Below the pieces are notes generated by a model, which did not search any database, was not told the DNA's origin, and saw only the letters and a list, made by a program, of their open reading frames with translations. This document shows positions 4,378-4,902 of a stretch of DNA of 64,000 bases, piece by piece (position 1 is the first letter of the stretch; each line of letters opens with the position of its first letter). This DNA is from Paracoccus sediminis. Its GTDB lineage: Bacteria; Pseudomonadota; Alphaproteobacteria; Rhodobacterales; Rhodobacteraceae. The position numbers and the translations under genes were made by a program. Location: contig NZ_FZNM01000002.1 of NCBI RefSeq assembly GCF_900188295.1, forward strand, positions 310,001 through 374,000, in the 5' to 3' direction.

Positions 4378-4902
4378 TCAGGCGGCTTTCGCGCCGGTGA
4401 TGGCCGGGTCCAGCGTCCCCGACGCATGGCGTTTGGCCATCTCGTCCATCGCGATGACCGTGATCTGGCTGGCCTGCCCTGCCGTGTCGAAGCGTTCGAA
4501 CCGGTCGCGGCACAGCGCGGTCAGTTCGGCCATGGCGACGTTATGGTCATAGTCGGCGGGGGTCTTCATGTCCTCGTGCAGCGACCCGTCCATCATGACG
4601 GACGTGAACCCGTGGCGGATCGCCGACATGCAGGTCGCCAGATTGTTGCCATGGTCCTGATGCAGGCAGATCGGGATGTCTGGGTTCATCTCGGCCAAGG
4701 CCTCGACCATGCGCCGCAGCATGATGTCGCCGGCATAGGACCGCGCGCCCCGGCTGGCCTGAAGGATCACCGGGGCATCGACGGCCGCCGCCGCCTTCAG
4801 GATCGCCAGGCCCTGTTCCAGGGTGTTGATGTTGAAGGCGGGCACGCCATAGCCGGGTTCGGCAGCGTGGTCCAGAAGTTGCCTCAGCGTAATCAGCGCC
4901 AT
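4378..4902 (-). pseudogene. cbbA: class II fructose-bisphosphate aldolase with internal in-frame deletion
   Basis: Only 174 residues, against about 345-355 for Calvin-cycle class II aldolases. The N-terminal part (residues 1 to about 128: [26 protein letters not shown]) and the C-terminal part (from about 131: [26 protein letters not shown]) both match the family well, but they are joined directly. The missing middle holds the two later metal-binding histidines (GTSHGAYK and VMHGSSS motifs) and the NIDTD substrate-binding segment, so aldolase activity should be lost. The frame is open, start and stop are normal, and it overlaps the 29-codon ORF upstream by one base (TGATG). No other aldolase gene is in the window. 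A real deletion or an assembly error across a GC-rich region are both possible. Confidence 0.85.

Follow-up and report, generated by a model that had tools for sequence, protein, structure and literature searches.

In-frame remnants of cbbA and cbbT in the Calvin-cycle operon of Paracoccus sediminis and recurrent loss of both genes in the genus

The cbbA gene in the Calvin-cycle operon of Paracoccus sediminis has lost its middle in frame. We read it, with a probability of roughly 0.8, as the decaying remnant of a redundant gene, the cycle being likely served by the housekeeping aldolase and transketolase encoded elsewhere in the genome. The adjoining transketolase gene cbbT also lacks its middle and also stays in frame, so that two operon genes were hit and not one. 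The operonic cbbT and cbbA were each cut down by an internal in-frame deletion, leaving 29 and 174 codons as probably non-enzymatic leftovers. The window, which is the whole stretch of DNA analysed, comprises 64,000 nucleotides of contig NZ_FZNM01000002.1 (positions 310,001 to 374,000) and contains the following features:

736..1455, minus strand: cbbE, ribulose-phosphate 3-epimerase, intact
1452..2405, minus strand: cbbX, RuBisCO activase, intact
2463..2882, minus strand: cbbS, RuBisCO small subunit, intact
2894..4363, minus strand: cbbL, RuBisCO large subunit, intact
4378..4902, minus strand: cbbA remnant, an ORF of 174 aa that joins residues 1-124 to the final 50 of class II fructose-bisphosphate aldolase across an in-frame 555-bp deletion
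4535..4537, minus strand: cbbA deletion junction, CGC/CGCC, with 3-4 nt of microhomology between both edges in relatives
4902..4991, minus strand: cbbT (transketolase) remnant, a 29-codon ORF that keeps about 16 N-terminal and about 12 C-terminal codons, both in the frame of the full gene
5005..5877, minus strand: cbbP, phosphoribulokinase, intact, above the cut-off of NF011997
5885..6880, minus strand: cbbF, class 1 fructose-bisphosphatase, intact
6976..7896, plus strand: cbbR, LysR-type regulator, divergent

An earlier note on this DNA, made from the sequence alone, had described 4378-4902 as an in-frame ORF with start and stop whose ends match both ends of the aldolase, and this description holds. 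Its extents need correction, from residues 1-128 and the last 44 to 1-124 and the last 50. The loss of the middle stands as well, and its size changes from about 175 residues or 520 bases to 185 codons. These 555 bp, a multiple of three, are absent in comparison with the cbbA genes of P. benzoatiresistens EF6 (G019) and G001. Alignment to full-length Paracoccus CbbA, a check that the note had proposed, confirms the internal deletion with its junction at about 4535-4537. With the full-length CbbA of P. benzoatiresistens as query, the remnant is matched by residues 1-124 and 308-359 and by none between, at 92% identity across the aligned part.

The likeness to Calvin-type class II aldolase (TIGR01521, FruBisAldo_II_B; CbbA) is thus confined to the two ends. 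The remnant scores 243.1 bits against TIGR01521, below the curated cut-off of 496.35. In the alignment DHG is retained at 83-85, and the segments EGELG, TSHGAYKF, MHGSSSVP and KVNIDTD (columns 140-279) are missing; as the note had said, the later metal-binding and substrate segments are gone. The roles of these five motifs as metal and substrate residues we take to be those in E. coli FbaA. Both marks of a functional Calvin-type class II aldolase are therefore lacking, the score above the cut-off and the metal and substrate residues of the barrel. One mark of a pseudogene remnant is found, the loss of an essential part of 185 codons with an intact Fba present on contig C13. Judged from its sequence, the aldolase piece is without most of the residues that bind metal and substrate, and is non-enzymatic. 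A regulatory RNA within the remnant was also considered and dropped, since no Rfam family reached its gathering threshold in window positions 1-12000.

The note had taken the rest of the operon to be intact. This is contradicted by cbbT, and the other genes are indeed full length. In many relatives cbbT sits between cbbP and cbbA, with 662 codons in P. benzoatiresistens. In P. sediminis the TGA of its remnant overlaps the ATG of the cbbA remnant (TGATG), and 14 nt separate the stop of the cbbA remnant from the ATG of cbbL. The homology of the short C-terminal part of the cbbT remnant was judged by eye, and its junction was placed by comparison of the edges, as global nucleotide alignment misplaces it.

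The assembly of 3.64 Mb is a draft of 40 contigs, which leaves some room for an assembly error, with a full-length cbbA in the real genome. The note had listed this possibility, and we regard it as very improbable because the junction edges share 3-4 nt and no long repeat, the middle of the operon's own cbbA is absent elsewhere in the assembly, and the adjoining cbbT carries an analogous scar. The junction also lies within a contig of 480 kb, and the residual codons have changed at sites that are invariant in intact genes.

The search for a second fba that the note had proposed returned an intact copy. This class II Fba at C13:43778-44812 is 67% identical to CbbA and scores 603 bits (TIGR01521 cut-off 496). 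Its neighbours, named from their ORFs, are a DeoR-type regulator, tpiA and glpX, and a tkt gene lies at C13:38621-40573. Full-length CbbA has three matches in the P. sediminis genome, two of them at the ends of the operonic remnant and the third in this paralogue; apart from the latter, the missing middle is found nowhere in the assembly. With intact copies on contig C13, close to tpiA and glpX, the operonic cbbT and cbbA are probably dispensable, and the housekeeping enzymes would supply the Calvin cycle. Of the three explanations that the note had offered, reliance on another aldolase with decay by clean deletion is the best supported, given the intact Fba and five changes at invariant sites, although the overall omega is not significantly raised.

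Omega was estimated with a purpose-written branch codon model, which sets the P. sediminis branch against the rest. For the whole remnant (174 codons) and 11 taxa, omega is 0.096 on this branch and 0.044 elsewhere (2ΔlnL 3.05, not significant). The signal is weaker in a refit with restarts on 8 taxa, with 0.100 vs 0.052 (2ΔlnL 2.22, not significant). In both sets omega is far below 1 (2ΔlnL 24.2 and 21.6, respectively). When the remnant is divided, a split that was chosen after the data were seen, the N-terminal part (124 codons) stays at background, with 0.039 vs 0.044 in the 8-taxon refit and about 0.04 in both fits. For the C-terminal part (50 codons), omega exceeds background (2ΔlnL 5.13 with 11 taxa and 9.32 with 8) and is indistinguishable from 1. 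The 11-taxon likelihood profiles of the two parts were noisy by one or two units, and these parts were therefore refitted with restarts on 8 taxa. Some fits (the 11-taxon remnant set and the cbbF, cbbE and cbbP runs) gave a foreground equal to the background and may not have moved. At 94 columns that are invariant in 43 intact CbbA proteins, we observe five unique substitutions in the remnant, three of them in the N-terminal part; the intact proteins have 0.30 on average and never more than 2.

The low omega points either to a recent deletion or to continuing constraint on the N-terminal part. The observed value would result if the deletion fell in roughly the final twentieth of the branch and change has been neutral since. 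Continuing constraint would suit a short product that has taken on a new role, for instance in regulation or as a small scaffold, and whose gene is maintained. The absence of a nonsynonymous excess in the N-terminal part, the omega of the whole remnant and the retained start, stop and frame all agree with this. Against it stand the changes at invariant sites, the near-neutral C-terminal part and the fact that a recent deletion would give the same low omega. An AlphaFold2 model of the 174-aa product, built from 18 sequences only, has three strands and a mean pLDDT of 61.3 with residues 85-116 below 50, and is too weak for a fold search. Among the matches listed in 125 genomes, only P. sediminis itself matched along the whole of residues 1 to 174. 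We found no positive evidence for a new role, which the note had also raised, even though the N-terminal part matches intact genes in its conservation, and we consider it unlikely.

Decay of a redundant gene thus remains the preferred reading. The operonic cbbA is also lost in other members of the genus. Across Paracoccus, a class II aldolase match is found in 84 of the 125 genomes and some cbbL match in 77, many of the latter only remote. The comparison of operons is based on 54 genomes in which cbbL of this operon type is covered to at least 80%; G112 is omitted and G081, with a frameshifted cbbL, is included. The operonic cbbA is lost in ten of the 54, namely P. sediminis (G000), Paracoccus sp. 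TOH (G072), G031, G041, G047, G048, G051, G054, G075 and G078, with G121, whose fba is frameshifted, scored as keeping it. In the eight operons other than those of P. sediminis and TOH, cbbP is followed almost directly by a full-length cbbL, with 25-127 bp between the matches. They share the gene order and the loss of both genes with P. sediminis and differ in that cbbT and cbbA are gone entirely, without remnants. Loss of cbbT is observed in 12 of the 54 genomes, the ten above and G110 and G011, which retain cbbA. Other defects of cbbT are an internal deletion in G081, a contig end in G104 and a break in G023, a poor assembly.

Assuming that cbbA was never regained, its ten losses map to at least four separate positions on trees of the operon, which were built with FastTree from cbbL, cbbS and cbbX (49 genomes) and from cbbP (51 genomes). 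On these trees the operon of G070 (L079) is a mosaic, its cbbP side grouping with one operon clade and its cbbL side with the other, a likely sign of recombination inside the operon. Of 24 genomes that carry a second class II fba like the one on C13 (64-69% identity to CbbA, genomes listed by hand), 10 have lost cbbA; of 30 that lack such a gene, none has (Fisher p 8e-5, kinship ignored). In the wider family, 394 genomes yielded 33 further operons of this type with a full or nearly full cbbL, 8 loci with a cbbL of about 57% identity being excluded, and 32 were compared (G237, at a contig end, was omitted). In all 32 cbbA covers at least 349 of 359 positions, so that its loss is confined to Paracoccus in this sample. 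Of the 30 operons where the place of cbbT is visible, 5 lack the gene, and no cbbT remnant between cbbP and cbbA was evident by eye in these five operons of other genera. That both genes have repeatedly been lost from the operon within the genus goes beyond the earlier note, as does the cbbT deletion.

The same survey bears on the possibility that the whole cbb operon of P. sediminis is starting to decay, with the Calvin cycle out of use and cbbT and cbbA the first to go. Wrecked operons with a broken or missing cbbL do exist in the genus (G003, G014, G028, G064 and G122), all in genomes with a second fba of the C13 kind, and G081 (L086) carries frameshifting deletions of 10 and 11 bp in cbbF and cbbL. 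In addition, the omega of cbbP in P. sediminis is raised in one taxon set, at 0.075 vs 0.025 with 8 taxa (2ΔlnL 6.75); with 11 taxa it is 0.073 vs 0.047 (2ΔlnL 1.33). The invariant-site counts, from which G112 and G081 are omitted, give no change in CbbP nor in CbbF, CbbS and CbbX, 2 of 312 in CbbL and 1 of 118 in CbbE. Background-level omega is found on the P. sediminis branch for cbbL (0.029), cbbS (0.026), cbbX (0.073), cbbF (0.069) and cbbE (0.074). The eight genomes without operonic cbbT and cbbA retain a full-length cbbL, and the P. sediminis genome encodes SoxB and PQQ alcohol dehydrogenases as possible energy sources. General decay of the operon therefore appears improbable, if a shade less so than a new role for the product. 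By these measures purifying selection acts on cbbF, cbbP, cbbL, cbbS, cbbX and cbbE, all of them full length, and the Calvin cycle most likely still runs. In the largely wrecked operons L089, L090 and L091 (G028, G122 and G003), the last gene, cbbE, survives at almost its full length and at 91-92% identity, as though no other copy existed.

The second case of in-frame erosion with remnants is Paracoccus sp. TOH (NZ_CP098362.1, plasmid p1; L033/L104), where cbbT and cbbA are likewise eroded between intact cbbP and cbbL. In contrast to the two remnants of P. sediminis, TOH carries a single cbbT'-cbbA' fusion ORF of 477 codons, a separate event on another branch. Two deletions in its cbbT, of 33 and 66 bp, are in frame, and the longer one sits at a GGCATGGCGGCG repeat of the relative G020; a third deletion joins cbbT, again in frame, to the final portion of cbbA. 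The fusion was established from the protein reading, because here too global nucleotide alignment misplaces the junction, and the PLSDB table, which is incomplete, gives no gene for this ORF. The cbbT part is clearly relaxed, with omega 0.32 vs 0.08 (2ΔlnL 31) and 44 changes at 340 invariant columns vs 0-9 in others; cbbP and cbbL of TOH show no relaxation. No stop is found in the 477 codons. The TOH branch carries 66 nonsynonymous and 42 synonymous changes, the G020 branch 20 and 46. From roughly 48 excess nonsynonymous changes and a ratio of 0.027, worked by hand, only about 1.3 stops are expected by chance, so that finding none is no evidence on its own.

Both deletions in P. sediminis and all three in TOH are in frame, together 5 of 5 above an intact cbbL, with a chance of 0.004. 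In G011 (L101) a 19-codon ORF, MNAP...AARNPATE, lies between cbbP and an intact cbbA, above an intact cbbL. It is probably an in-frame cbbT remnant, as judged by eye against the start of cbbT in its relative G073 and the end there, AARNLITE. The counter-case is G121, where both fba and fbp are frameshifted and cbbL behind them is full length; the assembly is of low quality, and the frameshifts may be sequencing errors. Counting it lowers the tally to 5 of 6 (0.018), or 6 of 7 with G011. Readable remnants in operons with a dead cbbL (G028, G064, G122) change frame. In G081 cbbT has lost about 150 codons in frame; as an in-frame deletion above a live cbbL this case was rejected, cbbF and cbbL being frameshifted, and its operon is early in decay.

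The numbers are small, and the in-frame deletions suggest selection for unbroken translation into cbbL, which would keep cbbLS expressed. Selection may then act on the reading frame and not on the protein. Ribosomes would be bridged from cbbP to cbbL through the TGATG overlap and the 14-nt gap, and transcriptional polarity on cbbLS would be avoided. We put this forward tentatively, as a possibility that is somewhat less likely to be right than wrong.

Bacterial pseudogenes can arise by deletion of a redundant paralogue, and the kind of event described here is already known. The likeness to such cases lies in the second copy elsewhere and the changes at conserved sites; the difference is that both P. 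sediminis remnants keep start, stop, frame and the overlap with a neighbouring ORF. What deserves attention is that the loss recurs, that it goes with a second aldolase and that the frame is kept. No report of cbbT or cbbA loss in Paracoccus was found in a literature search of partial coverage.

We conclude that P. sediminis probably presents a metabolic operon that is losing its redundant members while its signature enzymes remain constrained, caught between the full and the reduced form. In a Paracoccus genome, a short 'cbbA' annotation is not by itself a sign that the Calvin cycle is lost. If the reading frame is indeed what is kept, redundant operon genes would erode by in-frame steps until the flanking genes join directly, as in the eight reduced operons. 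If only the frame is constrained, these operons would serve as a simple test, provided by nature, of the part that polarity plays in the loss of genes from operons.
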